Below, in pieces: positions 14,242-62,088 of a stretch of DNA of 64,000 nucleotides. The notes under the pieces are model-generated. The model was not told the origin of the DNA. It searched no databases and saw only the letters and a program-made list of their open reading frames with translations. Positions within the stretch are counted from its first letter, which is position 1. The number at the start of each line of letters is the position of its first letter. Origin of the DNA: Puccinia triticina (lineage: Eukaryota > Basidiomycota > Pucciniomycetes > Pucciniales > Pucciniaceae); contig NC_070568.1 of the NCBI RefSeq assembly GCF_026914185.1, positions 434,001-498,000 on the forward strand, read 5' to 3'. The translations under genes were made by a program, and so were the position numbers.

Positions 14242-14407
14242 AAACAAATAAGGAATAATCAATTCATTTCTTTCCTCTTTTCTCTTTCTCATCTTCTTAC
14301 ACAATAACATAATAACAAAATAAAATCAAATCTATAAAACAAATCAGAAATAAATCAATATAAATCAGTCTCAAAACACTCTCAAATAAAATAACTAAAT
14401 ATAAAAA

Positions 14408-15197
14408 TCAAAAGCTCACCTCTTCTTCTTTTATCACTACATCACCCTCTTCCATTTCACTTTCCTCCTTCTCCTTCTCTTTTCCCTTCTCCTTATCTAA
14501 AAAAATAAAAAAAAATAAAAAAAATAAAAAGACATCAAAAGAAAATTAAAGCATAACATTAGTAAAAATCCTCAATAAAGAATAAAAATAGAACTTACCC
14601 TCAGCTCTTATCCTCTCCATTTCTGCTTCTACCCTCCAACCATCTTCCTCCTCTTCCACTTGGTCCCTCATCCTTAATAATTCCAGGGCATTCCTCTCCT
14701 CAGTTTCCTCTATCATGGCATCTATTATGGAATGAGTATCCATCTAAAAATCAAAATAGAAACAGGAAAAAATATCAGTATTATAATCAATCTTCTTTCT
14801 TTTCAAATTCTTATTCATATACATACGAAATCCATTCGACATACATGTGTAAAAGCGTCGTGGAACCGGCTATACAATTTAAGGCGTGCGTTTCGTGCGG
14901 CAACCGGGTCGTCGAGGTCTTCACGAGCAAAGGCGAGGAGTCCTTGTTGGATATAGTGACGCAAGGCATCGACTTCTTCAGGTTTAAAAGAATCTCTCAT
15001 ACCGGCGTTGTACGCGTGAATGTTGTCGACGAACGAGTGCGCTCTACGAATAGAAAAGGTATTTCGTAAGAGGGGCTAATGACGGCCTCTTCGTCAAGCT
15101 GCGAAGATGATATGGACGTTTTTGAAGAATAATCTAATGAGTTATCGAGGTTTTCTTTCGGCGAAGAAGGCGTGGAAGTGGCGCTGGAGGCAAACAT
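14408..15197 (-). pseudogene. Antisense spliced gene in Gypsy A1 (one-base deletion)
   Basis: Minus-strand gene with three exons: 15197-14845, 14743-14599 and 14496-14408. Introns have GTATGT...TTTTAG and GTAAGT...TTTTAG ends. The predicted product (about 195 residues) has a Ser/Thr-rich N-terminus, a helical middle (VDALRHYIQQGLLAFARED), a Glu-rich coiled-coil-like segment (IEETEERNALELLR) and a Lys/Glu tail. No family recognised. Exon 1 is 353 bases against 354 in copy 2: one base is missing near 15050, which breaks this copy. A TATCTATAAG box lies about 55 bases upstream of the ATG and is conserved in copy 2. Confidence 0.6.
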
Positions 15198-16315
15198 TAC
15201 GGATATTGAATGCGATAACGGAACTTTTCCATTGGCCAACGACCAGGGGCCTTATAGATACTCATTTTTTTCTTCATTTTATGACGTCACTATGGACGCC
15301 TTCACCGCTCAGAATCGTGTGGCGCGGATTCTCTTTCATTTTCTTAATGTTGACTCTGGTGTTCGACCCAGCTTAATTAAATTCTTGGAACGCTTTCACG
15401 TCATTCTTTTCGCCTATAACTTTTTCCAATCGATCGGCCAGCTTCAGGAGTCTAATTGGACAGCTCCTTCGCGTTACCTTAAGAGTATTTCATCATGTAT
15501 TCATCTCCCTTCAACTCCTATACGATGGAAACCGCGGAAAATCATAATAAAGCTTTAATCGCTCGAATAATCGGTCGGCCGGCTTCAAATTTAATATTGA
15601 TCATTACAGCCTTCATAAATGCGATCTTGCCTTTCATTTGAACTTGGTTCTGGACGATTCTATCGAGCCGTTTAGAAGTTATAACCCCTCAAAGTTTCCC
15701 TAGGATTTACGCGGCCCCGCGGGTGCCATTCATTAAACGTTTACGGCGACCTATCGGCCGAGAGGAATCTCAATATCAATCTATTCTAGTTTCATCTCCT
15801 CCTTCTTGCCTTTCAAATGAGCTCGTAATTAAAAAATTTCATCGACGGGTTTTTGAGTTATATCTGGAGGAAGTGGTCTCTTAATCTGCACGGCTTTACT
15901 ACTACGCGCGCCCGCGGGTCTTGCTTGGATCTTTAACCGGCCCTACACAATCGATACTCAACCCTTAAAAATAACCAGTATATACCATTTTAATCTGCAG
16001 AATCGCCTCTTTCGGATGAACTTGGTTTCAAGAATTTTCATCGAGCCGTTCCGGAGATACAGGTCGATCAATTTCTATTTTTCTTTTCGTCATTCCGCAC
16101 GCGCGCCTCCTGCTTAGAGCCCCCGCTCAGACAACTGGACCCCTCTTTCGACAGCACGCGCGCATGGACACATGTTCCATTCCTCATCTGTACAAAAATT
16201 AACGCTTTTTTTCGTAGTGGACATGGGGAAATTAAAAGGAGTCAAGTACTCAAGAATAATGGGAAAAAGGAAAAGGAAAGAAGAAAAACCATCATCATGG
16301 AAAAGGAATTCATTC

Positions 16316-16993: not shown

Positions 16994-19900
16994 ATGTCTG
17001 ACGATAAGAAACTCTCAACCTCGGGCAAAGCCCCCGCATCCTCCGTTGGTGCGACTGTGACCATCAACAATGACTCTTCGGCAGCCTCCTCTCAAAAATC
17101 GGCTGCCGCTCGTCTCCCCATTCTCACGGAACCCGGCCCAGACTCAAACTTCCCGGACTGGGACCTCGTGATGACCTCCTATTTCGACGCCGTCAACTTG
17201 GACTATGTCATCAAAAAGCCGATGCCCGAACATCCGCCAGCCTCGTGGGTAGCAGACAACAAAACAATCTGCGCTATCCTCACGCAAACAGTCGTAGGTT
17301 CGAACTTACTCACTGTCCGACCCTACAAGAAGAACGCATACGGCATGTGGCAGGCGCTTGTTCGCTCTCACCTGGACTCGTCCACAGGCGGCAGAGTCTA
17401 CTGGCTTCGCAAGCTCCTTCTCGCGAAAATGGAAGGTGACGACCTTCTCTCGCATCTTAACACCATGGCGAAGGCATACGATCGCCTCAACGCTCTCATC
17501 ACTCCGGATAAACCTCTCACTCCATCCGATGTACACGCCGCCGCGCTCTTAAGTTCAATTCCGGACGACTGGATGGCCTGCGTTTCCCATCTCATGAATC
17601 AAGATGGTGTACAGTCCGAGGCGATTGTCTTAGCTCTGAAAAACGAGCACACCCGACGACAGTCTCAAACCGAGGTTGTCCCCTCGGCCTTGTCGGCAAA
17701 GGCCAGACCCCGATCTGACAAACGACCAGGTGATCGCACTCGTAAGCCGCTTCACTGCGATTTCTGTAACGCAGATGGCCACGATCTCAATCGGTGCAAC
17801 AACACTCGCAAGATTCTCGCCGAGCATAAGGCAAACCAACAACCCCGGGTGGATCCCAAGGATCAAGGCCAAAGCAAGCCGGCCGCACGAGCTGGTCGAA
17901 CCTCTGCAGCCACTCTCGGCCAATCGTCTCATACCTACGAAGAAGATGAAGAATCCGACTACTCTGGTTCCCAGATCAACGTTGTCGCTGGTAACGCGGT
18001 TGCCGCTCTCTCAGCTTCCTTCGGCGCGTTTACTGCCGGAGATGCAAACCTGGACTCTGGATGCTCCATGTCAATGACACCGGACCTCGCCACCGTCGAA
18101 AACCCCAAGCCGGACCACACTCCTGTCCGCCTTGCCGACCACTCTGTGGTCGAAGCCACTCACAAGGGCACGGCCAGACTTCCAATAGGCGGCGATGTCA
18201 AGGTCAAAACTCTAGTCGTCCCCTCTCTTCATGAACCGCTCCTCTCCATCGCTGCCATGTGCGACGCGGGCGTTACTGCTGTTTTCACCAAATCCTCCTG
18301 CGATCTCTACCGATCGGACTCCATCCACATCACTGGCTCGCTTTCCGGTCGTGGTTATCGGCGAGGAAATCTCTATTACCTGTCCTCTGAGCCTGTGAGC
18401 TCATATTCCTCTGATCCCATTATTTCTCCACCTGTTGACAACTCTTTGCTTGCATACCACTATCGACTCTCTTACATCGGCCTCAAACCCCTCAAAGCCT
18501 TTCTGAATCGTCACAATATCCACCCGTCAACGATGAACGAGATTGAGGTGCAAAAATGCCCCATCTGTGTCCAATCAAAAATGCCCCGCAACGCTTTTCG
18601 ATCTCAAACTCTTCATCGATCTTCAACCCCGGGCGAGCTAATTCACTCGGATGTTTGCTCCTATGAGGTCGTCTCTCGGGAGGGCTATAAGTACTTTATC
18701 ACCTTTATAGACGATTGTTCCAAGTTTCTCCAAGTTTTTCCCATGAAATTAAAAAGCGATTCGTTCGCCTGTTTCAAAACTTTTCGTGCATTCTTTGAGA
18801 AGAAGGGTTCCCACAAGATTCTTGCTCTCCGCACAGACAACGGCGGAGAGTACTTGTCAAGTCAGTTCACTTCGTACTTGTCCTCCGCAGGCATTAAGCA
18901 CGAACCGGGTCCTCCTCATTCGCCGGAATTGAACGGGGTCGCCAAACGAACCAATCGAACAATCAGCAATCTGGTGAGGTCATCTCTCCTGCAAGCCAAG
19001 CTTCCGAAATCATTCTGGGCCGATGCCCTCAGACACTCGATCTTCCCATACAACTCAATCCCTTGCAAAACCCCGCAAGGTTTTCTCTCACCATCCTCGA
19101 TAATGCAACATCAAGAGATCGACATTGAGCGGCTACATCCTTTTGGATGCCTTGTTTGGTACAAGGTACCTGAGGCAAACTGTAAGAAAATCGATCAAAA
19201 GGGACGGGCCTCCATTCTTCTCTCCTACCTCTGTGACGGGAATGGGTTCCGCCTGTGGGACCTAGAAAACCGCTCGGTTGTCAAGTCGCGTGATGTTATG
19301 TTTGTTGATTCAACTTTCCCTTACGGCGCAAAACTGAACACTCCATCTGATCCAATCACAGTGGAGATGCCGTGGTCCCAACTCAAAAAGATTCCTCCGT
19401 CTAGGGATCTCTCTCCCCTCAAGATTACTCAACCGAGTCGGGACGTCAACAACCTGCACCCACCAGCTCCAGATGCGTCTTCCCCTATTGATCATTCTTC
19501 TCCCACCCCATCTCCACCACCTCGGGTAGCCACACCGGATCGCCCGCCACTTGACGTTCCCCTCAAACCTTGCTTTGATAGGCGCTTGGCAGCCTCAATC
19601 CATGCCCCAGGCAACGCTCCTCGCTCTGTAGAGTCAATTCCATCAGATTCAGACTCTTCCCGACACTCCCCGCTGTCATCTCCCTCGCTGCTCTCCCCGG
19701 ACATCTCCATCATTTCTCTCCCCCCACTCCCTGCGTCTCCGTCTCCCCCTCTCCCCCCCCGCGTCCCCTCGACTCCTCCCCCTTCCTCTCCGGCAAAAGC
19801 TGAATCGCCAAATTCTCCATCTCTTCCTCCGCCAAAGATTCCGTCGCCGAAGCCTGCACCACCGCCTCCACGCCGCCAATCAACACGAGAACGCAAAGCG

Positions 19901-21493
19901 CCGGAGCGCTACGGTCAATGGTCAAAGAACGCATCTGCTGGTGGCGATGTTGACACACCAAAGACTTGGCGTCAGCTTCTGAAATCCCCAAATAAACACC
20001 GTTGGATGAAGGCCGCCGAAGACGAATTTGCATCACTGTTGGGAATGCAAACCTGGAAACTCGTACCGCGCCCAGAAAAGAGGCGGATTATCAAATCTAA
20101 ATGGGTCTTCAAAGTCAAACGTCGACCCGATCAAACCATTCAGAAGTTGAAAGCACGCCTGGTAGCCATGGGCTATTCTCAGATCCAGGGACTCGACTAT
20201 GATGAGGTTTTCTCCCCAACGCTACGCTTGGAAACACTCAGACTAATATTCTCTCTTCTTGCCAGTCGTAGTTGGAAAGGCCGTCAAGTAGATTTCAAGA
20301 CGGCATTCCTTAACGGACACCTTGACAAGCCCATCTACATGGAACAGCCACCGGGCTTTGAAGACCCGCAACATGCCGATTGGGTCTGCGAGGTGAGCCG
20401 CTCACTCTACGGCTTGAAACAATCTCCTCGCCAGTGGAACATTGAACTCCACAAGGCGCTCCTAGGCCTAGGCCTGAAAAACTCGAAGTACGATCCCACC
20501 CTATATTTCAAACTGGACAACGGCAAACTCTCGGGTGCCCTTACAACTCACGTTGACAATCTTGCTATTGTTGGCGAGCCATCCTTTGTTGATTCTCTTA
20601 TTTCCTCAATCGGCCGACAATTCAAAATAGGAGCCGATGAAGACCTCAACCACTTTCTATCTTTGAAGATTACGCATGACGTACCCGCCCGATATGTCTA
20701 TCTCAATCAAGGACACTACATCTCGGATCTCAATGATCGCTTCCTCGCCGGTACTCACGTGTCTGTTCCAACACCAACTGACGTCAACTTCAAAAATCTT
20801 ACTCATCGTCAACCGAAAGACTCCCCGTCGCCTGGACCATATCCACAGCTCATCGGTGCACTGCTCTGGGTCTCACAGTGCACCCGCCCAGACATTTCCT
20901 TTGCAGTCAACCGTCTGTCTCAATACCTTCGCGATCCTTCCGCCTCCCACTGGTACGCCGCCGTACGAGTTCTCAACTATCTCATCTCCACCAAAGACCT
21001 GAAGCTACGCCTCGGTGGGGATCTCTCATGCTCTGGATATTCTGACTCAGACTGGGCTGAAGATCGTGATGATCGCCGTTCAACCTCAGCCTACACGTAT
21101 CGCTTAGGGGATGGCGCAATCTCCTGGAAATCCAGAAAACAAGCAACCGTCTCGCTTTCAAGCACCGAAGCCGAATACAAAGCCTTGTCTGATTCGTGCA
21201 AGGAGGCCCTCTGGCTCAGACATCTTCTGACGGAACTTCGCCTTCGCCCGGACACCGCGATTCCCCTTCACGTTGACAATGAGGGTGCGGAAGCACTCGC
21301 AAAGAACCCTGAACATCACGCCCGCACGAAACATATCCACGCCCGATATCATTTTATCCGAGAATGTGTCAAAGAAGGAGACGTCTCACTCCTTCATGTG
21401 TCGACAAAGGATATGGTCGCCGATATGCTGACCAAACCTCTGCCTCGTGTTGCCCTTGAAAGACATAGGACCCTGTTTGGAATTGTTGGATGA
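16994..21493 (+). CDS. Copia A gag-pol polyprotein, open but with altered catalytic residues
   Basis: Single frame of about 1,499 codons from the ATG of MSDDKK. Order: gag; knuckle CDFCNADGHDLNRC (CX2CX4HX4C) near residue 255; protease LDSGCSMSMT near 354; integrase; Pro/Ser-rich linker; RT; RNase H. Although no stop interrupts it, key sites are changed. The integrase zinc motif reads HYRLSY where LGH is usual. The DDE glutamate position reads NGVAKR rather than NGVAER (residue 651, AAA). The RT box reads HVDN instead of YVDD (residue 1189, AAT). RNase H looks normal (SDSDWAED, TEAEY, HVDNEGA). The encoded enzymes are therefore probably inactive in integration, perhaps also in polymerisation, and recent insertion implies help in trans. 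Confidence 0.92.
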   Translation: MSDDKKLSTSGKAPASSVGATVTINNDSSAASSQKSAAARLPILTEPGPDSNFPDWDLVMTSYFDAVNLDYVIKKPMPEHPPASWVADNKTICAILTQTVVGSNLLTVRPYKKNAYGMWQALVRSHLDSSTGGRVYWLRKLLLAKMEGDDLLSHLNTMAKAYDRLNALITPDKPLTPSDVHAAALLSSIPDDWMACVSHLMNQDGVQSEAIVLALKNEHTRRQSQTEVVPSALSAKARPRSDKRPGDRTRKPLHCDFCNADGHDLNRCNNTRKILAEHKANQQPRVDPKDQGQSKPAARAGRTSAATLGQSSHTYEEDEESDYSGSQINVVAGNAVAALSASFGAFTAGDANLDSGCSMSMTPDLATVENPKPDHTPVRLADHSVVEATHKGTARLPIGGDVKVKTLVVPSLHEPLLSIAAMCDAGVTAVFTKSSCDLYRSDSIHITGSLSGRGYRRGNLYYLSSEPVSSYSSDPIISPPVDNSLLAYHYRLSYIGLKPLKAFLNRHNIHPSTMNEIEVQKCPICVQSKMPRNAFRSQTLHRSSTPGELIHSDVCSYEVVSREGYKYFITFIDDCSKFLQVFPMKLKSDSFACFKTFRAFFEKKGSHKILALRTDNGGEYLSSQFTSYLSSAGIKHEPGPPHSPELNGVAKRTNRTISNLVRSSLLQAKLPKSFWADALRHSIFPYNSIPCKTPQGFLSPSSIMQHQEIDIERLHPFGCLVWYKVPEANCKKIDQKGRASILLSYLCDGNGFRLWDLENRSVVKSRDVMFVDSTFPYGAKLNTPSDPITVEMPWSQLKKIPPSRDLSPLKITQPSRDVNNLHPPAPDASSPIDHSSPTPSPPPRVATPDRPPLDVPLKPCFDRRLAASIHAPGNAPRSVESIPSDSDSSRHSPLSSPSLLSPDISIISLPPLPASPSPPLPPRVPSTPPPSSPAKAESPNSPSLPPPKIPSPKPAPPPPRRQSTRERKAPERYGQWSKNASAGGDVDTPKTWRQLLKSPNKHRWMKAAEDEFASLLGMQTWKLVPRPEKRRIIKSKWVFKVKRRPDQTIQKLKARLVAMGYSQIQGLDYDEVFSPTLRLETLRLIFSLLASRSWKGRQVDFKTAFLNGHLDKPIYMEQPPGFEDPQHADWVCEVSRSLYGLKQSPRQWNIELHKALLGLGLKNSKYDPTLYFKLDNGKLSGALTTHVDNLAIVGEPSFVDSLISSIGRQFKIGADEDLNHFLSLKITHDVPARYVYLNQGHYISDLNDRFLAGTHVSVPTPTDVNFKNLTHRQPKDSPSPGPYPQLIGALLWVSQCTRPDISFAVNRLSQYLRDPSASHWYAAVRVLNYLISTKDLKLRLGGDLSCSGYSDSDWAEDRDDRRSTSAYTYRLGDGAISWKSRKQATVSLSSTEAEYKALSDSCKEALWLRHLLTELRLRPDTAIPLHVDNEGAEALAKNPEHHARTKHIHARYHFIRECVKEGDVSLLHVSTKDMVADMLTKPLPRVALERHRTLFGIVG

Positions 21494-21617
21494 TCTTCTC
21501 TTCTCTTCCCTTATTCCCTCTCTCTCTGATTCCCTAATATTTTGTTTTCTTTCTTTCTTTATTTCCTCCTCTTTCTTTTCTTTCTTTCTTGTTCTTCATG
21601 TGTGCAGCAAGGGGGGG

Positions 21618-21984
21618 TGTTGAGTTATGGTTCTCAGGTTTTCTTTGTTCTTTTTCTGCTTTACACATTTCATCCACATGTTACACCTAGTTTCACATGT
21701 ATGTAGTATACCTGGGCCCAGCGGACGTGGAAGGACTCTTTCCTCATCCTTCCACTACCATCTCCACTCGACCCGCATCGTGTCCGCTGGTCTCAGGTAC
21801 AGTAGTCTCATCTTTCCTTTGTTTCTCTCTCTCTTCTTTGCTCTTTCTCTTTCTTTTCTTTTCTTTCTTATGTTCTATCCATATCTGATGTGCAATGATA
21901 CCATCCTTCCACTACCATCTCCACTCGACCCGCATCGTGTCCGCTGGTCTCAGTCCGCTGGTCTCAGCTCTGTCTAGCTCATCA
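21618..21984 (+). repeat. Copia A 3' LTR (367 bp)
   Basis: Preceded by AAGGGGGGG. Nearly identical to the 5' LTR except for one T/C change near 21783 and an extra TCCGCTGGTCTCAG near the 3' end. Confidence 0.93.
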
Positions 21985-22732: not shown

Positions 22733-23663
22733 TGTGGTGCTCCATTCCAAACCATAAGTAGTATTTTATTGCTTTCTTTTACATATATTCATCATTACAT
22801 TGAACATTTCCCCATAAACCTTCACAAATACCTCATTATTATTGCATATTCAGATTCTACATCAAATTTCACATATAGTCATTCCTACATAGTACCCCCT
22901 TATCTTCAATGGTTCAGTAGTTATAGAGGATATAAGACTTACAGATAATCTACAGTCTTCATTAGTTACAATACTCAATTCATTAGTAACTTACTTGAAT
23001 CATTACAGTACATTACTTTTACATAATTACTTTCACATACTAAACCCTTTACATACATTCCTCATTATGTACTATGGCTATTGTACACATTACATCATTA
23101 GATCTGTGCTTACCTCTTTCAGTAGTGCTCATCATTACAAGTAGTTACTATGTTCTCATCACTTTTCCCCATTAGTACATTCTTTTATTCCCATAACCAG
23201 CATTCCCTTTTCAGCATTGCTCATCATTACATACTGTTACTATGTTCACATCACTCTTCCTCATTTGTACAACCTTCATTCTCATAGCCAGAACTCTTCA
23301 TTGTCTGTGCTCATCCCTCCTTACTATAAGAATTGTCTTCCCCCCCCTCACTTGTACCTCATGCAGAGAAATATATACAGAATTTATAGATAATTTTGGA
23401 TACAGAAATTATAAGTTCCCCACTCTCATCAATCCTCCATCTCTCTTACCCTCAGTAGTCAGTAGTTAAGCTCATAGTACTAGCTCCTAAGATCAAGCAG
23501 AAATCAGCCACACCTTTTCTTCTTTTTTCTTAGTGTTACTCTCATCCCCTCAGCATTAGTCAGGAAGGCAGCCTCATCAGCACCCTTGCATAGCTTACAT
23601 TAGTACTAGTGTTGCTATCCATTTACCTTCCAAGCTCTATTCTCCCCTTTGAGTAGTTCCACA
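22733..23663 (+). repeat. Gypsy A1 3' LTR (931 bp)
   Basis: Same sequence as 7532-8463 with about two differences; ends ...GTTCCACA and is followed by the target duplication CCGT. Confidence 0.93.
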
Positions 23664-43360: not shown

Positions 43361-45224
43361 TGTGGTGCTCCATTCCAAACCATAAGTAGTATTTTATTGC
43401 TTCTTTTTACATATATTCATCATTACATAGCCCATCTCCCCTTCACCCTTCACAAATACCTCATTATTATTACATATTCAGATTCTACGCCAAATTTCAC
43501 ATATAGTCACTCCTACATAGTACCCCCTTATCTTCAATGGTTCAGTAGTTATAGAGGATATAAGACTTACAGACAACCTACAGTCTTCATTAGTTACAAT
43601 ACTCAATTCATTAGTAACTTACTTGAATCATTACAGTACATTCCTTTTACATAATTACTTTCAAATACTAAACCCTTTACATACATTTCTCATTATGTAC
43701 TATGGCTATTGTATACATTACATCATTTGGATTTGTGTATACATTACATCATTTGGATTTGTGCTTACCCTTTCCAGGAGTGCTCATCATTACAAGTTGT
43801 TACTATGTTCACATCACTTTTCCCTATTTGTACAACCTTTCTTCCCATAGCCAGAACTCTTCATTGTCTGTGCTCATCCTTCCTTCATATAAGAACTGTC
43901 TTTCCCCCCCTCACTTGTACGTTATGTGTCAGCCACAGAGTACATGTAACAGTACCTTACACGTACCAAGTACCTGCAATTGTTCACATCACATATAGTA
44001 CATTCCTTTTTACGCCTTTATTACATATGTATATCATTAGATACAAGCTTAAGAATGTACTCCTGTTATACATTACATTACAGATAACCATAGTTAAATA
44101 CAGTTACCATAATGTACTGCTGTTATGAGAGTTAAGTTACGTGCAACAGTAAGATTACAATACATTGTAACATTACTGTACACGTGAAATACACCAAGAC
44201 AGGTATCACTCATTTATCCCCTGTTACGCCTCAGTACCTATTTACATAACATATTGGTTATGATATAAATACATAAACAATACATGATGTAATCCAATTG
44301 AAAGAGCACTGAATGGAATCAATGATTGGTTATGATCAGCTAGTGTACACAGCTACTGATCCAGGATCAGTACTGATCATTACACTGCCCTGATCATTTC
44401 CAATGTTGATCCTCATGAGGATCTGCTTCCCTTGAGCGCTTCCAGTTCCCCCCTGGTCCTGAAGCGCCTCCAAGCGCCTCATGTTCCCTCCTGCTCATTC
44501 CCCTCTATATAAACACGCCCCCCAGGACTGTTTATCCCTCAGAATATTATTATAGCAAGGTTTAACACATACATAGTTAAACAGTGCCTTCATTCTCAAC
44601 CATCATTCAATTCAGGAATACTCTCAACTCTTGATTACCCTTACCTTTCTGTAGGTAAAACCACGAACCCAAGTTGAGTTATTCCTTGGATGCCTATTAA
44701 CACCCTGTGTTGATCTGGATGCGCCTTAATTGAGCAAGCCTCTCAGTCAAGATTACTGATAGAGTGAAACCTTTTACAGGTCTTACCACGAACCCATTGG
44801 CCCATCCTTGGCATCTTACACCATCATCTTGATAGTAACAACCCTCTCAGACACGGTTAGTTACATACAGGCTGACATTATGCAGAATTCTATATACAGA
44901 AATTATAAGTTAGAAATTACCCATTGATATCAGTGCAGTTGCTCCTGAACCCATTGCTATTGAACCTTGCCATTGCATTCCCCACTCTCATCACTCCTCC
45001 AACTCTCTTACCCTCAGTAGTCAGTAGTTAAGCTCATAGTACTAGCTCCTAAGATCAAGCAGAAATCAGCCACACCTTTTCTTCTTTTTCTTAGTGTTAC
45101 TCTCATCCCCTCAGCATTAGTCAGGAAGGCAGCCTCATCAGCACCCTTGCATAGCTTACATTAGTACTATTGTTGCTATCCATTTCCCTTCCAAGCTCTA
45201 TTCTCCCCTTTGAGTAGTTCCACA
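43361..45224 (+). repeat. Gypsy A2 5' LTR, interrupted
   Basis: Matches the 3' LTR 53888-54776 apart from the inserted solo LTR (43927-44877 plus duplicated TTATG) and a duplicated TATACATTACATCATTTGGA phrase near 43712-43763. Confidence 0.92.
43927..44877 (+). mobile_element. Solo LTR of a separate family (951 bp)
   Basis: Ends are inverted TGTCAGCC...GGCTGACA with the duplication TTATG at 43922-43926 and 44878-44882. The empty site is seen in the 3' LTR near 54422 (TGTACCTTATGCAG). CTCTATATAAACACGCC at about 44510 is a good TATA box. No internal sequence, so the rest of the element was lost by LTR-LTR recombination. Strand is taken from the TATA box. Confidence 0.92.
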
Positions 45225-45453: not shown

Positions 45454-47925
45454 ATGTCTGCCCAAGGATCTCCCAACACCAATGTTGCTCCCAGTCTTTA
45501 CCCTCCAGTGGATCCTTCCAGTAATGCTGCAGTTCAGGACTCCACCACTTCCAATGCTGGTCAGACTCAGGTTCCTCCCACTGGTCCAGGTTACCAACCT
45601 TCTTCTACTGGTCCAGGTCCACAGGCTTCTTCCAATGCTCCAGGTCCACAGGCTTCTTCCAATGCTCCAGATCCCCAGGGTTCTTCTACTCCACAAGTCA
45701 ACTCCAGTTCTTACAGACCTCCACCTGGACCTCAGACTTCCAGTATCCCTAAGTACACAGGATATAGAGATACCAATCAGCCTTCAGAAGATTCAGAAGA
45801 TTTAGATGCACCACCACCCCGCTTTCCCAGGTTCCAGCGCCAAAGGGACAACTCAACACACTCCACCAGGTCCAACACTCACTTTTTAAATAAGGAACCA
45901 GCTATGCCTAGGTATCAGGATCCGGTCAGCAGAGGAGTAAAGATCAAACCCATGGACAAAGAGCTCTTCTTTGATGGAACCAACATGCCTGTGGAGAAAT
46001 TCATTAGAAGGTATGAAAGTGCTGGAAGAGATGATGGTGCTAACTCTAAGGAACTGGCTGGACAAATCATTGCTTTTATCAAAGGGTTGGACCTTAAGGA
46101 TGAAGTGGAAGACATGTCAGGCCATGAAAACTTGGATTGGGAAACACTGAAGAAACAGCTACTCACCAGGTTTGGAACTTCTCAGCAATTGGTCAGATAT
46201 ACCAGGGAGGATCTCAGGAAACTAGTCTACAAATCTGCCCAGGATGGAGGAATCAGCACCTTGGAAACCTTCAACACATTCAGAAACAAGTTTGAAACCA
46301 TCACTCACTACTTGGTAAGAATGGGGTACAGTACCAGCCTGGAGGAATTCAGACACCTTCTTTTGGAAACTCTTCACAAGGATCTGGATCAAAGGGTTAC
46401 TAGGAGCTTGATGAAGGACAATCAAATGCTAGCCTCAAAGGACGGAGGTGATATCTTGCCAGACACTGAAACTCTTCTTACCTACATTCACCAGGAAGTT
46501 TACTCAAGATCAGTGGTCAACAGAAGGACTGAATGGAGGGCAGAAGAGAAATTCACTTTGGACAACTCACCTAGGACCTCCAAACCCACACCTGCTACTC
46601 AGGGAGCTGCCCCTACTGCTTCTACTTCTCTGGACAAACAAGTGGAACTCCTTACCAAACAACTTGCATTTCTTACTGCTGGCAAAGGACTACATCCCCA
46701 CATGGACAAACCTGCTAGGACCTGGCCATTCAAATGCTATTATTGTCATCAGGAAACCCATGGAACCAACAGCTGCTCTCAACTTGCCCAGGACATGTCT
46801 AGTGGTGCTGTTATCAAGGATGGAAGAGATTACAAACTTCCAGACAAATCAGTTATTCCATGGATTCCAAGCAGACCAATCAGAACCCCAGTGGAAGAGT
46901 ACTCTAAAACTAAGCTCACATCTTCTTTTGGCCAACTAGAGGAGGACCCAGTCTATTATCAAACCCATAGTTATGAAGCAGACCTTGGAAAGAGGACCAG
47001 AAACAACTCTAAGGATCAGGATGAAGAGGAATCAGCCAAGTCAGACAAAAGGATCAGAAAGGAAAAACAGGACCTAATGGACATGGATACAGAGGACTTA
47101 CTTCACATGACACAGCCCCCCACTCCTAGTGCTTCCAAATCCCCTACTTCAAAAGGCTCCCCTCAAGTCAGATTCCAGGATAAGGACAAGGATTCAACCA
47201 CTGCACCTAAGGACAAACCAGTTAAGAAAACCTATTTGGAAAAGACTTTGGCCAAGGAGTACCCAGGAATTGAAGAGGAAGTGGCTAGTAGGATGTTGAC
47301 TGCAGGAAAGATGGAGTTGGCCTTTGGAGAAATCTTTGCTATATCACCAGGAGTTACTGACTGTATCAGGAAGAAGATAACCAACAGAAGGGTCCCATTG
47401 GATGGTGTCAAATCAGCAAACTTCACAGACATGGAGGATGAAGAAGAACCAGCACAGGAGCAACCCACTACTCACTACTCCTGCCCCCTTGGATACATCA
47501 CCATCACTATTGGAGGAGAGAAACATCAAGCACTCTTGGATACTGGCTCTATGGTCAACATTATTCCTGAAACTCTTGCACATAAACTTGGATTGGTACT
47601 CACTGCTAAATCTATGAAGCTCAAAGGAATTGGAGGCCACCTTACTGATATACCTGGAATTGCTGAAGATGTGGAGGTAACCATTGGGAAAGTAGTCAGG
47701 ACAGTTCATTTCTGGGTAGCCAAAGGACCAGTTCAGATGATTATTGGAAAGCCTTTCTCGATGGATGTCTCAGCTAACATCAACTACAATGGAGCCAGAG
47801 GAGAAGCACTTTCAATCATGGATTCAGCTGGTCAGACTTTTTTGGTTCCAATCATACTCCCCAGTAATCAGAAGTGGGAAACCAGCATACCTTCCAATTC
47901 TGGACTGGTAAATTTTTTAGATTGA
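45454..47925 (+). CDS. Gypsy A2 gag-protease, intact
   Basis: Uninterrupted 823-codon frame. The N-terminus is rich in Pro/Ser/Gln and has one extra PGPQASSNA-type repeat relative to copy 1. The capsid region (FFDGTNMPVEKFIRRYE) is followed by the knuckle CYYCHQETHGTNSC (CX2CX4HX4C), a Lys/Asp-rich linker (KDQDEEESAKSDKRIRKEKQ) and the protease motif LLDTGSMVNIIPETLA. The position that is a stop in copy 1 is AAG here. Ends TGA at 47923, one codon after the slippery site. Gag forms the particle; the protease would cleave Gag and Gag-Pol. Confidence 0.93.
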   Translation: MSAQGSPNTNVAPSLYPPVDPSSNAAVQDSTTSNAGQTQVPPTGPGYQPSSTGPGPQASSNAPGPQASSNAPDPQGSSTPQVNSSSYRPPPGPQTSSIPKYTGYRDTNQPSEDSEDLDAPPPRFPRFQRQRDNSTHSTRSNTHFLNKEPAMPRYQDPVSRGVKIKPMDKELFFDGTNMPVEKFIRRYESAGRDDGANSKELAGQIIAFIKGLDLKDEVEDMSGHENLDWETLKKQLLTRFGTSQQLVRYTREDLRKLVYKSAQDGGISTLETFNTFRNKFETITHYLVRMGYSTSLEEFRHLLLETLHKDLDQRVTRSLMKDNQMLASKDGGDILPDTETLLTYIHQEVYSRSVVNRRTEWRAEEKFTLDNSPRTSKPTPATQGAAPTASTSLDKQVELLTKQLAFLTAGKGLHPHMDKPARTWPFKCYYCHQETHGTNSCSQLAQDMSSGAVIKDGRDYKLPDKSVIPWIPSRPIRTPVEEYSKTKLTSSFGQLEEDPVYYQTHSYEADLGKRTRNNSKDQDEEESAKSDKRIRKEKQDLMDMDTEDLLHMTQPPTPSASKSPTSKGSPQVRFQDKDKDSTTAPKDKPVKKTYLEKTLAKEYPGIEEEVASRMLTAGKMELAFGEIFAISPGVTDCIRKKITNRRVPLDGVKSANFTDMEDEEEPAQEQPTTHYSCPLGYITITIGGEKHQALLDTGSMVNIIPETLAHKLGLVLTAKSMKLKGIGGHLTDIPGIAEDVEVTIGKVVRTVHFWVAKGPVQMIIGKPFSMDVSANINYNGARGEALSIMDSAGQTFLVPIILPSNQKWETSIPSNSGLVNFLD

Positions 47926-47967
47926 GACCAGGTTTTCAGTTCCCTTCCCTTACAACTGCAACCCTGG
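47913..47967 (+). promoter_or_regulatory. Predicted -1 frameshift signal (gag-pol, copy 2)
   Basis: T TTT TTA at 47913-47919 in the gag frame, an 8-base spacer and the same stem-loop at 47928-47967 as in copy 1. Confidence 0.75.
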
Positions 47968-49777
47968 AAAATAACCAAAAGCAACAAACTGTAGACACTC
48001 ATTCAGCAAAATATAAATCAACTCTAAAAAAAATAAAACCAGTAAACCAACCAATGCCATTATCTCTCAATCCCCCATTATCAAGGCCACCACTCTCCAG
48101 AGATCCTTACCTCACTCCTTTGAGCCCTTTTCCTCCACCATTCACTCCTACCTCTAAGATTACTCAAGAAAGGCTGGACCTCATCAACTTTGGACCTCCT
48201 GGATGGCTCTCTCCTCAAGAATATCTCCTGCTGGTATGGGTAATTGTGATTAGACAAGGTGCTTTGGCTTTTGTGGAAACAGAAAGAGGCCTTCTTAAAC
48301 ACACCTATGGAAAGCCTTATATTATTCCAGTCATTCCCCATGAACCTTGGCAACAGAAACCAATTCCAATCCCTGCACCCATCAAAGACCAGGTTATAGA
48401 ATTGGTAAGGGAAAGACTCAGCACTGGCCTCTATGAACAATCCTTTTCCAGTTATTCCAGCCCTATATTTTGTGTAAAGAAGCAGGATGGTAAGCTCAGA
48501 ATTGTACATGACCTTCAGAAACTCAACAAAGTCACCATTAAGGACGCTGGACTACCACCAAAGACAGAGGAACTCATTGAATCATTCACTGGAAGGGCTT
48601 GCTATGGACTAGGTGATATTATGGGAGGATATGATGAAAGAGAATTAGCTCCAGAATCCAGACCTCTGACCACCTTTGAAACACCCCTTGGAAGATTTCA
48701 ACTTACCAGATTACCCCAAGGAGCCACCAATTCAGTTGCAGTTTACCAGGCCCAAATGATGTGGATACTCCAGGATGAACTACCTCAACATATGGGAATC
48801 TTTGTGGATGATGGAGGTATAAAAGGACCAACCTCTGACTACAATGAAGAAACTCTAAAGGACAACCCCCAGATCAGAAGATTTATCTATGAATATGCCA
48901 TTACTCTGGAAAGGATTCTTTTCAGGATTGAAGAAGCTGGACTCACCATCTCTGGGAAGAAATTTGCTTGCTGTGTACCTGCTCTGGATCTGGTAGGCCA
49001 TGTGGTTTGTAAGGAAGGCAGAAGGATATCCATCAAGAAGCTCAACAAAATTGAAACCTGGCCAACTCCCACCACTCCTTCAGATGTCAGAGGATTCCTA
49101 GGTATCTGTGTATATGTTAGAATGTTCATTAAAAATTACTCAACCCTCACTGCTCCACTCAGAAGACTCACCAGGAAGGACTCCTCTTGGGATTGGACTG
49201 AAGATTGCCAGGATGCCTTTGAGGACCTTAAAAGGATTGTTGGAACTGATATCACCCTAAAGAAATTGGACTATGGACCTGATGCTGGCTTAATCAAACT
49301 CTCAGTGGACTCCAGTGTTATTGCTGCAGGTGCTGTTCTTACTCAACAGGATTCTGATGGATTGGATAGGCCTGTGTTATATGAGTCAGTAGTCTTTTCA
49401 CCCACGGAATCAAAATACTCACAATCCAAATTAGAACTCTGTGGTGTTGCCAAGATCCTCAAGAAACTTCAAACCAAACTGTGGGGCCAACATTTTCAAC
49501 TCAGAGTGGATGCCCAGTGCCTTATTGGAATGATCAACAACCCTTCACTTCCCAATGCCCCTATGAACAGATGGATTGGATTTATTCAGTTATTCTCCTA
49601 TGACCTTGTTCACACTCCTGGAAAAACTTTCACCTTACCTGATGGACTTTCAAGAAGACCCCCTGATTCTGATGAAGATGATTGTCCTAGCTTTGATGAA
49701 GATGAAACCTGGATCAAACTTCACCCTGGATTTGGAACTAAACATTCTTCTTTTGGCCTGCTTCTGGGGACATCAGC

Positions 49778-49794
49778 TAAGTTGGGGGAGGGGG
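49778..49794 (+). promoter_or_regulatory. Central polypurine tract candidate, copy 2
   Basis: TAAGTTGGGGGAGG inside pol, identical to the 3' tract at 53873-53886. Confidence 0.6.
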
Positions 49795-51174
49795 TAAGTA
49801 ACTTGCAGCAAGGAATTTGGAAGCACCTCCAGGAATACCTTTCAACCATGAACAAACCTCCAGGATGCAGCAGCCTGGAATTCAAGCAAATTTTGCACAA
49901 ATCAGCCAACTTCTTCCTTTCCAATGAAGTCTTTTCCCAGATAGTAGTCACCTCTCCTTCAGCTCAGAAATCCATCCTCAATTCCCTTCATGAATCCTCA
50001 GGCCACAGAGGTATTGCTGAAACCTACAGAAGGATTAAACTCAGATTTTGGTGGCCAGGTCTCAAGAGAGGTGTTACCAAGTGGGTCCAGTCTTGTGAAA
50101 CTTGCCAGAAGAGGAGCTCAAAATTGCCAATGGAACCCAAGAAACCTACAGGAGCAGCAACCATCTTTGGAAGAGTCAGTTTGGATACAGTTCACATCAA
50201 AGCTGGCAAATGGAAGTACCTGGTAATTGCAAGAGATGACCTTTCTGGATGGGTAGAGGCAGTTGGACTGGAAAAGATTCAGGCAAAGAAAATCTCTCAG
50301 TGGTTCTTGGACAACTGGATCTACAGATATGGAGCCCCTTGGTCAGTCACAGTGGATGGAGGCTCTGAATTTGGACAGCAATTTAAAAATCCCTTCTGGA
50401 ATCTGGAATCAAAATCAAAGTCACCACTCCTTATTATCCTGAAGCGAATGGTATGGTAGAAAGAGGACATCAGGCAATTAAGGATACCTTGGTCAAGCTC
50501 TGTGGAAAAGAAGGCAAGAAGTGGAGGAATTATTTACCTTTAGTTTTATTTGCAGACAGGATTTCCACCAAGAGATCAACTGGGTACTCACCTTATGAAC
50601 TAGTTCTTGGACAGCCCCCCATCTTACCCATTGATTTAGAATTGGAAACCTTCTTTGGAGTGGATTGGTCAAAGGTAGAATCAACTCAGGATCGTTTATT
50701 GGCTAGGACTCGGCAGCTTGAAAACAGGGATACCATCTTGCAGCAAGCACACCAGCAGCTCATGGATTCCAGGAAAAACTCTGTGGATTATTGGAACAAG
50801 AAGAAAACATCAAGGCAGCCACTAAAGAAAGGTCAATTAGTAGTAGTGTATAACAAATCTTTGGACTCTCAGTTTGGCAAGCTCTTTGAAAATAAATGGA
50901 ATGGCCCTTACAGAATCAAGGCTCAAAATCCAGAAGGGTCTTACATCTTGGAAGAATTGGATGGCACAGAATTGGCCAGAAGGTTTGCTGCAACTCATGT
51001 CAAGGAATACCACTCCAGGTAAAAACAATAAATAAGGAATAATCAATTCATTTCTCTGCTCTTTTCTCTTTCTCATCTTCTTACACAATAACATAAAAAA
51101 AAAAAAAAATCAAATCTATAAAATCAGAAACAAATCAATATAAATCAGCTTCAAATACACTCAAATAAAAATAA

Positions 51175-51965
51175 CTAAAATAAAGTCAAGCTCACCTCTT
51201 CTTCTTTTATCACTACATCATCTTCTTCCATTTCTCCTTCTTCTCCATCTTTCTTTTTCTCTTTTCCCTTCTTCTTATCTGAAAATAAAAATTAAAATAC
51301 ATAAAAGAAAATTAAAGCATAGCATTAGTAAAATTCTAAATAAAGAAAAAAAAAAAAAAAAAAAAATAGAACTTACCCTCAGCTCTTATCCTCTCCATTT
51401 CTGCTTCTACTCTCCAACCATCTTCCTCTTCTTCCACTTGGTCCCTCACCCTTAATAATTCCAGGGCATTCCTTTCCTCAGTTTCCTCTATCATGGCATC
51501 TATGATTGAATGGGTATCCATCTATAGAAACAGGGAAAAATATCAGTATTATAATCAATCTTCTTTTTTTCAAATTCTTATTCATATACATACAGAATCC
51601 ATTTGACATACATGCGTAAAAGCGTTGTGGAACCGGCTATACAATTTCAGGCGTGCGTTTCGTGCGGCAACCGGGTCGTCGAGGTCCTCACGAGCGAAGG
51701 CGAGGAGTCCTTGTTGGATATAGTGGCGCAAGGCATCGACTTCTTTGGGCTTAAAAGAGTCTCTCATACCGGCGTTGTACGCATGAACGTTGTCGACGAA
51801 CGAGTGCGCTCTGCGAATGGAGAATGGGATTTTGTAGGAAGGCCTAATAGCGGCCTCTTCGTCAAGTTGAGATGAAGTTATGGATGTGTTTGACGAATAA
51901 TCTAATGAGTTATCAAGGTTCTCTTTCGGTGACAAGGGCGTGGAAGTGGCGCTGGAGGAAAACAT
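51175..51965 (-). CDS. Antisense spliced gene of Gypsy A2, unknown function
   Basis: Three exons on the minus strand: 51965-51612 (354 nt), 51521-51377 (145 nt), 51278-51175 (104 nt); 603 nt in all, 200 residues. Introns begin GTATGT and GTAAGT and end CTATAG and TTTCAG. The N-terminus is Ser/Thr-rich (MFSSSATST). The middle is predicted helical (HSFVDNVHAYNAGMRD; VDALRHYIQQGLLAFARED). A Glu/Arg segment resembles a coiled coil (IEETEERNALELLRVRDQVE). The tail is Lys/Glu-rich (KKKGKEKKKDGEEGEMEEDD). No transmembrane segment, signal peptide or known family. Exon lengths match copy 1 (353/145/89) apart from that copy's one-base loss and in-frame differences in exon 3. TCTATAAGG lies about 55 bases upstream of the ATG. 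Role unknown; regulation of the element is one possibility. Confidence 0.6.
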
Positions 51966-53569
51966 TACGGATAACAAACAGCAATAACGGGAACTTTCTG
52001 TTGACCAATGACCTAGACCTTATAGAAACTATTCCTTCCTCACTTCATGACGTCACTATGGACGCATTCACCTTTCAGAATTGGTTGGCGCGGTTATTCT
52101 TTCATTTCTTTAATTTTGACTCTGGTGTTTGACCCAGTTTAATCTACCTTTTCCGATATCTCTTGGCGCGTAAATACCGCGATCATTTCATCTAACACCC
52201 TCTTCAGACGATTGGCCAGCCTCAGGAGTCCATTTGGACAGTCCCTCGGCGGTACCTTTGGTTCATTTCATTATGTATCCCTTGGATTTCAAACTTCTTT
52301 GCGGCGGAAACCGCGGAAATCGTAATGAAACTTTGGAGCGTTTCAATAACAATTCGGCTGGCCTCAAAATTCATATTACACCTTTCCAGTTTCATCTTTC
52401 CAATCTTGGCTTTCGTTTGAACTTGGTTGTAGCCGATTCTATTGAGCGGTGTTGGAATTATAAGCGCTCAAAGCTTTGTTAGGATTTACGCGGTCTCATT
52501 TACGGTTTTCATTCAGCGTTCACGGCCGCCCATTGGCCGAATTAATCTTTCATAATGATCGGTTTTCGTTTCATCTCCTCCTTCTTGCCTTTCTAATTAA
52601 CTCAGAATCAGAACTTTTAATCAACGGAAAGCCGAGTTATACCCAAAAACATATTGCCTTCTATTTACGCGGTGTTATTACTACGCGCACCTGCGGATCT
52701 CGCTTGGATTCTTAACCTACCCTACACAATCAAAACTAAATAAGTAGTATATACCATTTTAATCTACGGAATCGGCCCTTTCGAATGAGCTCGGTTTCAA
52801 GAAAATTCATCGAGCCGTTCCGAAGATACAGGTCGACCATTTCCTTTCTTTTTTTTGGCGTTCCGCACGCGCGCCCCCCGCTTGGAGCCCCCGCTCAGAC
52901 AACAGGACCCCTCTTTTGGCATTACACGCGCATGGACACATGTTCCATTCCCCATCTGGACAAAATTAAGGCTTTTTTTTCGTCGAAATGGTGAATTCCA
53001 AAGTGCCCAGTACTGAACAGAAACCAAGAAACATTCATTCCCCAGCCATTGATCCATCCAGTCATTCATTGAATTCCTCGATCATCATCATCATCATCCT
53101 AAAAATCATTCTTTCTGAAAAAATAATCATTTATTCATTCCTGAACAATCAATCATTCCTCCATCATCATCTTCACCCTGTATTCTAGGAATTCTTCAGC
53201 CAACAAACCAATTCACCATTATAATCAATTTCTTCCAACACATTGCAGCTCAGAAACCACCCAATTAGAGCAAGAATATTCTTTTGTACAGCTTATCAGC
53301 TTCCCTGGACTTCAAATTCTCTTCACAGAACTCTACATTATATACTCAGATACTCAGAAATTCAGCCATTCAACCCCAAATCATTCACAACCTTCAGAAA
53401 CTACAATTATCAACCCCATCATTCATCATCAATCATTGCATTCTTCCATTGGCCTCAGTTAGGCAGGAAAATTATTGTATTCTTCAGAGTGGAATTTAGT
53501 CTAATATGTGTCTGTCTCAAGGATATTGCCTTCAGCAGAGTTAGATCTTCTTAAACATTCACCCCTCAT

Positions 53570-53887: not shown

Positions 53888-54776
53888 TGTGGTGCTCCAT
53901 TCCAAACCATAAGTAGTATTTTATTGCTTCTTTTTACATATATTCATCATTACATAGCCCATCTCCCCTTCACCCTTCACAAATACCTCATTATTATTAC
54001 ATATTCAGATTCTACGCCAAATTTTACATATAGTCACTCCTACATAGTACCCCCTTATCTTCAATGGTTCAGTAGTTATAGAGGATATAAGACTTACAGA
54101 CAACCTACAGTGTTCATTAGTTACAATACTCAATTCATTAGTAACTTACTTGAATCATTACAGTACATTCCTTTTACATAATTACTTTCACATACTAAAC
54201 CCTTTACATACATTTCTCATTATGTACTATGGCTATTGTATACATTACATCATTTGGATTTGTGCTTGCCCTTTCCAGGAGTGCTCATCATTACAAGTTG
54301 TTACTATGTTCACATCACTTTTCCCTATTTGTACAACCTTTCTTCCCACAGCCAGAACTCTTCATTGTCTGTGCTCATCCTTCCTTCATATAAGAACTGT
54401 CTTTCCCCCCCTCACTTGTACCTTATGCAGAATTCTATATACAGAAATTATAAGTTAGAAATTACTCATCACCCATTGATATCAGTGCAGTTGCTCCTGA
54501 ACCCATTTCTATTGAACCTTGCCATTGCATTCCCCACTCTCATCACTCGTCCAACTCTCTTACCCTCAGTAGTCAGTAGTTAAGCTCATAGTACTAGCTC
54601 CTAAGATCAAGCAGAAATCAGCCACACCTTTTCTTCTTTTTCTTAGTGTTACTCTCATCCCCTCAGCATTAGTCAGGAAGGCAGCCTCATCAGCACCCTT
54701 GCATAGCTTACATTAGTACTATTGTTGCTATCCATTTCCCTTCCAAGCTCTATTCTCCCCTTTGAGTAGTTCCACA
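53888..54776 (+). repeat. Gypsy A2 3' LTR (889 bp)
   Basis: TGTGGTGCTCC...GTAGTTCCACA, followed by ACGT and then Copia B sequence. Lacks the solo LTR seen in the 5' LTR. Confidence 0.93.
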
Positions 54777-59591: not shown

Positions 59592-60159
59592 CAACAATGG
59601 GCCACTACGCTACGCTAAGCTACGGGCCAATATCCGTTAGTGTATCCATGGTTATTTGGCGAGACAAATGTTGTTATCCCCAATTACAGCCCAATACACT
59701 AAAAGTTAGTGTATCCAAAGTTTCTCATTGAATATCTTGGGTCTTGTTATCCAGGATACACACATAATACACTAACAGGTAGTGTATTTCTTTTGGATAA
59801 CCAAGATTTCACTGAGATTTAGTGTATCAGAGTTAGTATAAAAATCTTCTGCACTACAGTATCTGTTATTTCATGGTTTTTGGCCTCTAGAAAATGATTC
59901 TCAAAACATTATGTCCTACATTTATTCTTTGAAAATCAATACCAACTTGCACAAGGAAGAATTTCAGGTCAAATGGGGGCAGGTGACGTGAAGGCATCTC
60001 CAGTTCAGTCTCCATTCCAACTCCACTCGGCCCACCACTTGTACTGCTCATGCAATGAGCTCGTTTCATGTTCAGCTAGTCTGCTCACCTCCATGTATGT
60101 ACTTGGTTAGCACAGCTCATCAACACATCAGGCCATATTATGCTCAGAACATGTACATA
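59592..60159. other. Non-coding, perhaps a second MITE remnant
   Basis: Begins with another CAACAATGGG-like end (CAACAATGGGCCACTACGC) and contains several TTAGTGTATCC words in both orientations up to about 59840. No right end or gene found. Confidence 0.4.
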
Positions 60160-60452
60160 CATGTATGTATGTATGTATGTATGTATGTATGTATGTATGT
60201 ATGTATGTATGTATGTATGTATGTATGTATGTATGTATGTATGTATGTATGTATGTATGTATGTATGTATGTATGTATGTATGTATGTATGTATGTATGT
60301 ATGTATGTATGTATGTATGTATGTATGTATGTATGTATGTATGTATGTATGTATGTATGTATGTATGTATGTATGTATGTATGTATGTATGTATGTATGT
60401 ATGTATGTATGTATGTATGTATGTATGTATGTATGTATGTATGTATGTATGT
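60160..60452. repeat. (ATGT)n microsatellite, about 290 bp
   Basis: Near-perfect GTAT tetranucleotide repeat of over 70 units. All frames are open on both strands (Met-Tyr-Val-Cys or His-Thr-Tyr-Ile repeats); these are not genes. Confidence 0.97.
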
Positions 60453-60589
60453 ACATACATATATACAAATGAGCTGGGCTTTCCCCTTCTCTGGTCATCC
60501 AGCTGGGGCTTCCCTTCACTTGATGGCACAGCTCTGATACAGGGGCCTCGTGGCCAAGCCCTTGCATTGAGGAGGACAACACAGGGCCG

Positions 60590-61640
60590 GTGTATATGGG
60601 CCATTGAGCAGAGGCAAGCCCCTGCTGGATTGCCGGTGTGTATGGGCCATTGAGCAGAGGCAAGCCCCTGCTTGACGGCCAGTGTGTATGGGCCATTGAG
60701 CAGAGGCAAGCCCCTGCTCGATATGGGCCATCGAGCAGAGGCAAGCCCCTGCTCGATATGGGCCATCGAGCAGAGTGAAGCCCCTGCTCGATATGGGCCA
60801 TTGAGCAGAGGGAAGCCCCTGCTCAATATGGGCCATCGAGCAGAGGGAAGCCCCTGCTTGATATGGGCCATTGAGCAGAAGGAAGCCCCTGCTTGATATG
60901 GGCCATCGAGCAGAGGGAAGCCCCTGCTCAATATGGGCCATTGAGCAGAGGGAAGCCCCTGCTCGATATGGGCCATCGAGCAGAGGGAAGCCCCTGCTCG
61001 ATGGCCGGTATGTATGGGCCATTGAGTAGAGCAAAGCCCTTGCTCAATGGCCGGTGTGTATGGGCCATTGAGCAGAGCAAAGCCCTTGCTCAATGGCCGG
61101 TGTGCATGGGCCATCAAGCAGAGCAAAGCCCCTGCTTGATGGCCGGTGTGTATGGGCCATTGAGCAGAGGCAAGCCCCTGCTCAATGGCCGGTATGTATG
61201 GGCCATCAAGCAGAGCGAAGCCCCTGCTTGATGGCCAGTGTGTATGGGCCATCAAGCAGAGCGAAGCCCCTGCTTGATGGCCGGTGTGTATGGGCCATCG
61301 AGCAGAGCGGAGCCCCTGCTTGATGGCCGGTGTGTATGGGCCATTGAGCAGAGCGGAGCCCCTGCTTGATGGCCGGTGTGTATGGGCCATTGAGCAGAGG
61401 CAAGCCCCTGCTCAATGGCCGGTATGTATTGGCCATTGAGCAGAGCAAAGCCCCTGCTCAATGGCCGGTGTGTATGGGCCATCCAGCAGAGGCAAGCCCC
61501 TGCTCGATGGCCGGTGTGTATGGGCTATCCATCAGAGGCAAGCCCCTGCTCAATGGCCAGTGTGTATGGGCCATCCAGCAGAGGCAAGCCCCTGCTCAAT
61601 GGCCGGTGTGTATGGGCCATTGAGCAGAGGCAAGCCTCCC
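60590..61640. repeat. Hairpin minisatellite II, 35- and 46-bp units
   Basis: About 25 units built on GGGCCATTGAGCAGAGG-CAAGCCCCTGCTCAATGGCC. From 60725 to about 61000 the unit is 35 bp (hairpins back to back). From there to 61640 a GGTGTGTAT linker makes it 46 bp. The stem comes as TTGAG/CTCAA, TCGAG/CTCGA and TCAAG/CTTGA. Long open frames on both strands (for example 60128-61390 minus) are repeat translations. Confidence 0.9.
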
Positions 61641-62088
61641 TGGATCACTGGATGGTGGACATGTGTACCAGTCATCAAGCAAAGCCCTGCTGGATGGCCA
61701 GTATGTACGGGCCATCGAGCGAGCTTAACAAAGCCTCACTGTGAGAGCCCCGCAGGGTCTCTGTCTCACAGAGAGGCTTACCTGCAAAAACCTGTACCTG
61801 GCCTGAGAGCCCCAGGAATATCAGCCTGTATCAGGCTTTTTTTCACTCTTTTCATTTTTAAACATCAACCCTTGGCCCGTTGAGGTTGCCCTTCTGGACT
61901 TAAGAAGTGCTTGGAAGTTTGCTTCTTCTGATGCAATTTGGACCTTGTAGCTGCTGATATAATGCCTGATCCTCCCGGTTGAAATTTCCAATCATGGAGG
62001 AAAAGTGGCCGTGTAGGGAGTGAGATTTACTGTACAGAACTGTGCAACTCTATTAGTCATCTCAAAGGATTCTCGGAAAGTGAGCTCC
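61641..62088. other. No gene; possible LTR remnant
   Basis: TGTGAGAGCCCCGCAGGGTCTC at about 61740 resembles the TGTGAAGCCCCGC start of the Gypsy C LTR, but no matching end or duplication is visible. Confidence 0.35.

Follow-up and report, generated by a model that had tools for sequence, protein, structure and literature searches.

Does a Ty3/gypsy retrotransposon of a rust fungus carry, on the strand opposite gag-pol, a gene of its own with introns, and what could such a gene do for the element? The question is raised by a window of 64,000 nucleotides of Puccinia triticina (contig NC_070568.1, positions 434,001 to 498,000), in which an earlier note had described a spliced antisense gene in two copies of one element, Gypsy A, each time between pol and the 3' LTR; the gene is indeed present there in both copies. 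What antisense accessory genes do for the retroelements that carry them is a puzzle that keeps returning, and little of it is settled outside HTLV. The reading favored here, with a probability of about 0.8, is that each element carries its own antisense transcription unit, predicted from the DNA to consist of a four-exon gene under selection, an internal promoter and a protein product.

The gypsy copies and the antisense gene model

Both copies are complete Ty3/gypsy insertions as judged by their ends, which were read off the printed sequence. In copy 1 the 5' LTR (7532-8463, plus strand) shows one mismatch to the 3' LTR (22733-23663, plus) over 931 aligned positions, and CCGT flanks both LTRs on the outside; pol (11251-14241, plus) is a single frame of 996 codons, in which Pfam finds RT, RNase H and integrase. 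Copy 2 is bounded by a 5' LTR (43361-45224, plus; TGTGG...CCACA) and a 3' LTR (53888-54776, plus), with ACGT outside both; about 1 kb of extra sequence at 43927-44899 lies within the 5' LTR and is missing from the 3' LTR. The gag-protease frame and pol of this copy extend over 45454-51022 (plus), the protease being found by Pfam. According to the list of open reading frames, neither copy has all its frames whole: the gag-protease of copy 1 is spread over two ORFs, and pol of copy 2 is broken into two frames (48054-50459 and 50453-51022). The two copies have a block of 2760 bp in common without a single difference (10364-13123 = 47167-49926), which covers the 3' portion of the gag-protease frame and a large part of pol; its sides diverge by 1-32% per 400 sites, a pattern that suggests very recent gene conversion or template switching. 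Copy 1 also contains a nested second LTR element (16510-21917), with repeats 5108 bp apart and a 1499-aa ORF at 16994-21493 that is copia-like by eye, located in the stretch that separates the antisense gene from the 3' LTR; elsewhere in the window, tandem arrays of 8-bp and 46-bp units occupy 60069-61726.

In copy 2 the antisense gene runs from 51965 to 51110 on the minus strand, between the pol stop at 51022 and the 3' LTR that begins at 53888, which is the position and the orientation that characterize the genes named aORF-3R. Exon 1 (51612..51965, minus) starts with the ATG at 51965 and contains 118 codons in 354 nt; it is followed by intron 1 (51522..51611, minus; GTATGT...CTATAG), exon 2 (51377..51521, minus; 145 nt) and intron 2 (51279..51376, minus; GTAAGT...TTTCAG). 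The junctions and exon lengths listed in the earlier note (354/145/104 nt in copy 2 and 353/145/89 nt in copy 1, with GTATGT and GTAAGT donors and AG acceptors) can all be read in the sequence, and the first two introns stand; its three-exon structure does not, four exons being most likely. The TAG at 51175, at which exon 3 had been ended, is replaced by a third splice: the revised exon 3 (51196..51278, minus; 83 nt) ends earlier, in the GAG that precedes the donor GTGAGC (GAG|GTGAGC at 51196), intron 3 (51116..51195, minus; GTGAGC...TTTATAG) had been missed, and the coding part of exon 4 (51110..51115, minus) consists of ATT and the stop TGA (TTTATAG|ATT TGA at 51116), with an untranslated tail beyond. 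The end of exon 3 is placed at 51196, and at 14420 in copy 1, and the C-termini of public Puccinia triticina models agree with this third splice. PTTG_07521 (195 aa; 79% identity at 98% query coverage) has ...KGEEI at its C-terminus and PTTG_28437 has ...KEEEI; splicing of copy 2 at this site predicts ...KEEEI, from which PTTG_07521 differs by one substitution.

The exons are found in copy 1 as well: exon 1 at 14845..15197 (353 nt), exon 2 at 14599..14743 (145 nt) and, read from the sequence with the four-exon model, exon 3 at 14420..14496 (77 nt) and the coding part of exon 4 at 14326..14331 (ATT TGA), all on the minus strand. However, at 353 nt exon 1 of copy 1 is shifted in frame by one base, and this copy is a broken one that cannot encode the product. 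The pattern is by no means confined to the two copies, about 118 places carrying matches to the exon-1 protein genome-wide.

Genomic copies and selection on the reading frame

The genome (122.8 Mb in 18 contigs) was searched with the exon-1 protein, which gave 128 match rows (E up to 10) at about 118 places, since some places are split over several rows. Seventy of the rows were aligned as copies and three more places were inspected singly; the 70 copies were found through the gene itself, and the counts refer to elements of the family that carry it. Their exon 1 is 73-100% identical at the DNA level; it measures 354 nt in 68 of 70 copies, including copies as low as 73% identity, and exon 2 measures 145 nt in 66. 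The splice sites are nearly fixed: donor 1 is GTATGT in 70/70 copies and acceptor 1 AG in 69/70, donor 2 is GTAAGT in 66/70 and acceptor 2 AG in 68/70, with an intron 2 of 72-128 nt between them, and donor 3 is GTGAGC in 66/70 and acceptor 3 TAG in 64/70. Exon 4 reads ATTTGA in 43/70 copies and varies in the others; the exact stop end falls within the exon-4 slice in just 38/70, because the T-rich tail varies there. The pattern that had been proposed from two copies, introns of freely changing length and an exon 3 that changes by whole codons, extends to the whole set: where exon-3 length departs from the mode, it does so by multiples of three in 31 of 33 cases, against 7/43, 20/63 and 16/49 for introns 1, 2 and 3. 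The frame is open through exon 3 in 61 copies, 55 of which have all six splice dinucleotides (GC being allowed at donors 2 and 3), and a stop precedes the exon 3 end in the remaining 9/70; when random substitution at 0.15 per site was simulated, 8% of exon 1+2 frames stayed stop-free.

Among the more unusual places, L071 (G000:C16:3737900-3739900) is very divergent and degenerate, with 34% identity in exon 1 and 56% in exon 2. Its exons 1 and 2 are still separated by about 80 bp, and since this gap is retained intron 1 probably predates the copies sampled. At G000:C13:5464160-5474899 four exon-1 matches recur every 3462 bp, each with one TAA, an arrangement suggestive of part of the element repeated in tandem.

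For dN/dS and codon positions, L008 and L022, which have a frameshifted exon 1, were dropped, leaving 68 of the 70 copies. Over this set dN/dS, which the earlier note had proposed to measure across many copies, is 0.17 in exon 1 and 0.15 in exon 2 for the gene frame, versus 1.36 and 2.12 (exon 1) and 0.94 and 2.01 (exon 2) for the other frames of the same strand; the gene frame is open in 66/68 copies for exon 1 and in 68/68 for exon 2. Decay of CpG as the source of the synonymous excess is ruled out, since the ratios are 0.12 and 0.13 without codons that touch a CpG. Exon-1 dN/dS is 0.34 for closely related pairs and drops to 0.14 for distant ones, the trend that selection on the replicating lineage together with decay after insertion would produce. 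In both exons the third codon position is two to four times as variable as the first and the second (0.286 versus 0.116 and 0.074 in exon 1; 0.134 versus 0.048 and 0.036 in exon 2). The frame of the opposite strand that mirrors these codon positions has dN/dS of 0.30 in exon 1 and 0.37 in exon 2, and contains stops in 68/68 and 49/68 copies, respectively. Coding on the sense strand was considered as a cause of the exon-1 constraint and is ruled out, no sense frame being open in any of the 68 copies: sense frame 2 of exon 1, the one with dN/dS 0.30, has a mean of 3.99 stops per copy. The short sense frames 1 and 2 of exon 2 are open in 36/68 and 19/68 copies, with dN/dS of 1.85 and 0.37.

A complete piece of pol beside the gene could be compared in 47 of the 50 copies tried, 45 after removal of L008 and L022. 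This piece is also under selection (dN/dS 0.05), and the ratio for the gene is about three times as high (0.15 vs 0.05); the constraint on the antisense gene is weaker than that on pol.

Exons evolving like the flanking non-coding DNA had been named in the earlier note as part of what would refute a gene. Raw divergence complicates the picture: over 70 copies it is 0.157 in exon 1, 0.138 in intron 1, 0.071 in exon 2, 0.099 in intron 2 and 0.119 in intron 3, and in a set of 30 copies 0.075 in exon 1 versus 0.039 in intron 1. Exon 1 is not below the introns, and its constraint is visible in codon-aware measures only. Its pS of 0.395 exceeds the values of the introns or of the 150 nt upstream (0.10-0.17); one way to account for this high synonymous divergence would be recombination that joined blocks differing in age. 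The copies are related, and with an exon-1 divergence at or above that of the introns they might be taken for chance open frames and splice-like sites that are alike through recent common descent; this is scarcely credible, as the third positions are the most variable and the 354 nt are kept down to 73% identity.

Taken together, the codon statistics, the indels by whole codons, the constancy of the splice sites and the public models bear out the earlier proposal of a protein-coding, spliced antisense gene, and at the level of DNA comparison they establish that it is kept protein-capable by purifying selection; conservation of the protein by selection (dN/dS 0.17 and 0.15) is a further property of aORF-3R genes. 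It is very unlikely that the antisense transcript itself is the functional product, as a source of dsRNA or by interference with gag-pol RNA, with the protein incidental. Antisense RNA of retroelements is described as able to feed silencing (PMC7264820), and the unit runs toward the 3' end of pol; however, the codon-specific constraint, the whole-codon indels and the 61/70 open frames show that the protein is selected. The two roles could coexist.

Putative promoter, predicted product and possible role

The selected gene appears to come with its own promoter. In the 150-300 nt examined upstream of each copy, the TATA-like site that had been placed about 55 bases before the ATG corresponds to CTATAAGG at -60 to -53 in both window copies (L001, L022), with coordinates 52018..52025 (minus) in copy 2; TATAA occurs at -55 to -60 in 69/70 copies and the exact CTATAAGG in 56/70. 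Further upstream lies an ATF/CREB-type palindrome (CRE), TGACGTCA, at 52048..52055 in copy 2 (-90 to -83) and at 15282..15289 before the gene of copy 1, neither assigned to a strand; it is exact at -82 to -93 in 61/70 copies, and the exact forms of both elements occur together in 49/70. bZIP factors bind TGACGTCA. The palindrome is present three times in the window against 0.58 expected, a count matched by 3 of 100 shuffles, and its weight lies in its conserved position, not in this count. The TATA of copy 2 is about 1.86 kb from the 3' LTR, and thus outside it. CRE and TATA at near-fixed spacing suggest an internal promoter. When the 150 nt upstream are divided into 143 8-mer windows and these are ranked by conservation, the CRE comes 5th and the TATA 8th. 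The best rank falls at ATGAAAGA (52098..52105, minus; -140 to -133), one of the two lowest-entropy 8-mers of this stretch; near -140 and at homologous places this block is conserved above both CRE and TATA. Stop-to-stop frames of at least 60 codons are listed in the 1.8 kb upstream of the antisense gene in both copies.

On this model, RNA polymerase II would start about 30 nt upstream of the ATG from the internal promoter, independently of the LTR, and three short introns would be removed from the antisense transcript. In the sense genomic RNA the same introns would read backwards, so they would be unspliceable and would survive retrotransposition; the gene could therefore persist through copying of the sense strand. 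A search of the genome for the joined exon1/exon2 junction, the one junction looked for, found none within two mismatches, in agreement with unspliceable antisense introns; the two junction half-patterns fit 69/70 copies with at most one mismatch. Laboratory retrotransposition reporters place an intron antisense to the element, and the rust gene is a natural counterpart of such constructs. The introns also enable a clean RNA test, a spliced read being inherently strand-specific.

The product would be an acidic protein of about 195 residues (pI 4.85 for copy 2 without the last residue), with a Ser/Thr-rich N-terminus, a helical middle and a charged, helical C-terminal part. A [VIL]K.E motif, similar in sequence to a SUMO-acceptor consensus, is found close to the end in 61/61 open copies. 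Structure prediction, which had been suggested as a check, gave limited guidance: AlphaFold2 on PTTG_07521 (6 rows) returned a mean pLDDT of 47.5, with a mostly helical model after residue 70. The earlier statement that the product matches no family was borne out in Pfam, among solved structures and in two protein searches: Pfam gave no match above cut-off and the solved structures no convincing one, the weak hits to FBO_C (E 0.047) and MerR (0.13) and, among the structure chains, to 3pvs (E 0.23) and nitrophorin (0.42 or more) being taken as chance. No homolog outside P. triticina appeared in the two protein searches; all protein matches are from Puccinia triticina 1-1 BBBD, and the profile search, which required shared 5-residue words, retained just 4 P. 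triticina proteins among 5487 candidates scored. The four public models of the product are all named hypothetical proteins, which suggests that searches for single ORFs can miss such a gene family.

Relatives of the element's pol are found in P. striiformis, P. coronata and Austropuccinia, whereas the product is matched only in P. triticina; the gene was therefore gained, or it diverged past the reach of the searches. A gain could have been the capture of a host gene, carried as a passenger that is kept for its use to the fungus or is simply transported, without a part in the element cycle. A captured genomic segment would bring along ordinary short introns and its own promoter, and the 2.0 kb examined at L071 and the 1.35 kb at L073 contain no significant match to pol; but no clean single-copy cellular relative was found among the three divergent places inspected, L071 and L073 being broken and L072 adjoining pol, and selection across many element copies fits a function for the element better than one for the host. 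Overall, a captured passenger is improbable.

For a gene that serves the element, the most likely function, proposed tentatively by analogy, is that of a small regulatory protein tuning expression, copying or copy number; the models are gene23 of Grande, for which such a role was proposed, and HBZ and APH-2, for which it is known. Neither Pfam nor the solved structures nor the low-confidence model provide a fold or family in support of regulation. An envelope-like or structural accessory protein is likewise very unlikely as the product: env-like frames of other elements are described between pol and the 3' LTR, but the rust gene lies in antisense and not in sense behind pol, and its product has no Pfam match above cut-off and no long hydrophobic segment by eye.

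If the protein is regulatory, its control may be modular. Among 47 copies, clustering at a distance of 0.08 separates 5 groups for exon 1, 8 for the 150 nt upstream and 3 for exon 2 to intron 3, pol forms 2 clusters at 0.03, and the distances between blocks are weakly correlated (r 0.23-0.43). Promoter and exon-1 types thus appear to be shuffled over similar pol backbones, a picture compatible with recombination passing type-specific control modules from one element to another; unequal evolution rates of the blocks would also contribute to the differing cluster numbers.

Comparison with known antisense genes

HBZ has a bZIP domain and APH-2 reportedly lacks a classic one; no bZIP or other Pfam match above cut-off is found in the rust product. 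Like the rust gene as modeled here, HBZ of HTLV-1 and APH-2 of HTLV-2 are described as antisense genes with a spliced transcript (PMC9822710). According to that account both start, without a TATA box, at several sites of the 3' LTR, whereas the rust gene has a TATAA near -60 in 69/70 copies, outside the LTR. A full fungal counterpart of HBZ, an antisense regulator that is driven by the CRE of its own promoter, is spliced several times and restrains or tunes its own family, is an unlikely reading.

Antisense frames between pol and the 3' LTR are known from plants and from the Boty elements of Botrytis and Sclerotinia (PMC7264820). The plant gypsy aORFs (Grande gene23, RIRE2, Retand TRP28 and PvRetro13) have the position and orientation of the rust gene, and they are reported to be kept in most copies, gene23 being transcribed from a promoter upstream of itself (PMC7264820). 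TRP28 of Retand is a PF04195 protein, and the rust product has no PF04195 match at E up to 1; moreover, two plant aORF papers never mention the word intron, whereas the rust gene has three.

Spliceosomal introns are reported for an antisense gene of another kind of mobile element, a homing endonuclease gene within a group I intron of nuclear rDNA (PMC9548176); this shares with the rust gene an antisense orientation and an intron, but element and protein are unrelated and a single intron of 47 nt is described there, against three. A brown-alga gene opposite a transposase was set aside as a parallel, being described in a DNA transposon and not in an LTR element.

The nearest case is brtn, the antisense gene of Boty-like gypsy elements in Botrytis cinerea (PMC7264820, PMC8365987, PMC4227169), which, like the rust gene, belongs to a fungal gypsy element and is placed in PMC7264820 among the frames that follow pol and precede the 3' LTR. 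The gag-pol of Boty is described with a CHROMO domain, and Pfam finds none in the rust pol. The earlier note had thought that an antisense gene with introns would be new in a fungal gypsy element; brtn shows that an antisense gene as such is not, and brtn may itself have introns, but the literature searched, mostly outside subscription papers, gave no description of a fungal LTR element whose antisense gene has several introns. The rust gene is unusually well marked, with roughly a hundred or more copies, a promoter-like CRE and TATA, three introns and selection at the codon level. Thus, an antisense accessory gene in a fungal gypsy element is of a known kind, and its multiple introns are what seems new.
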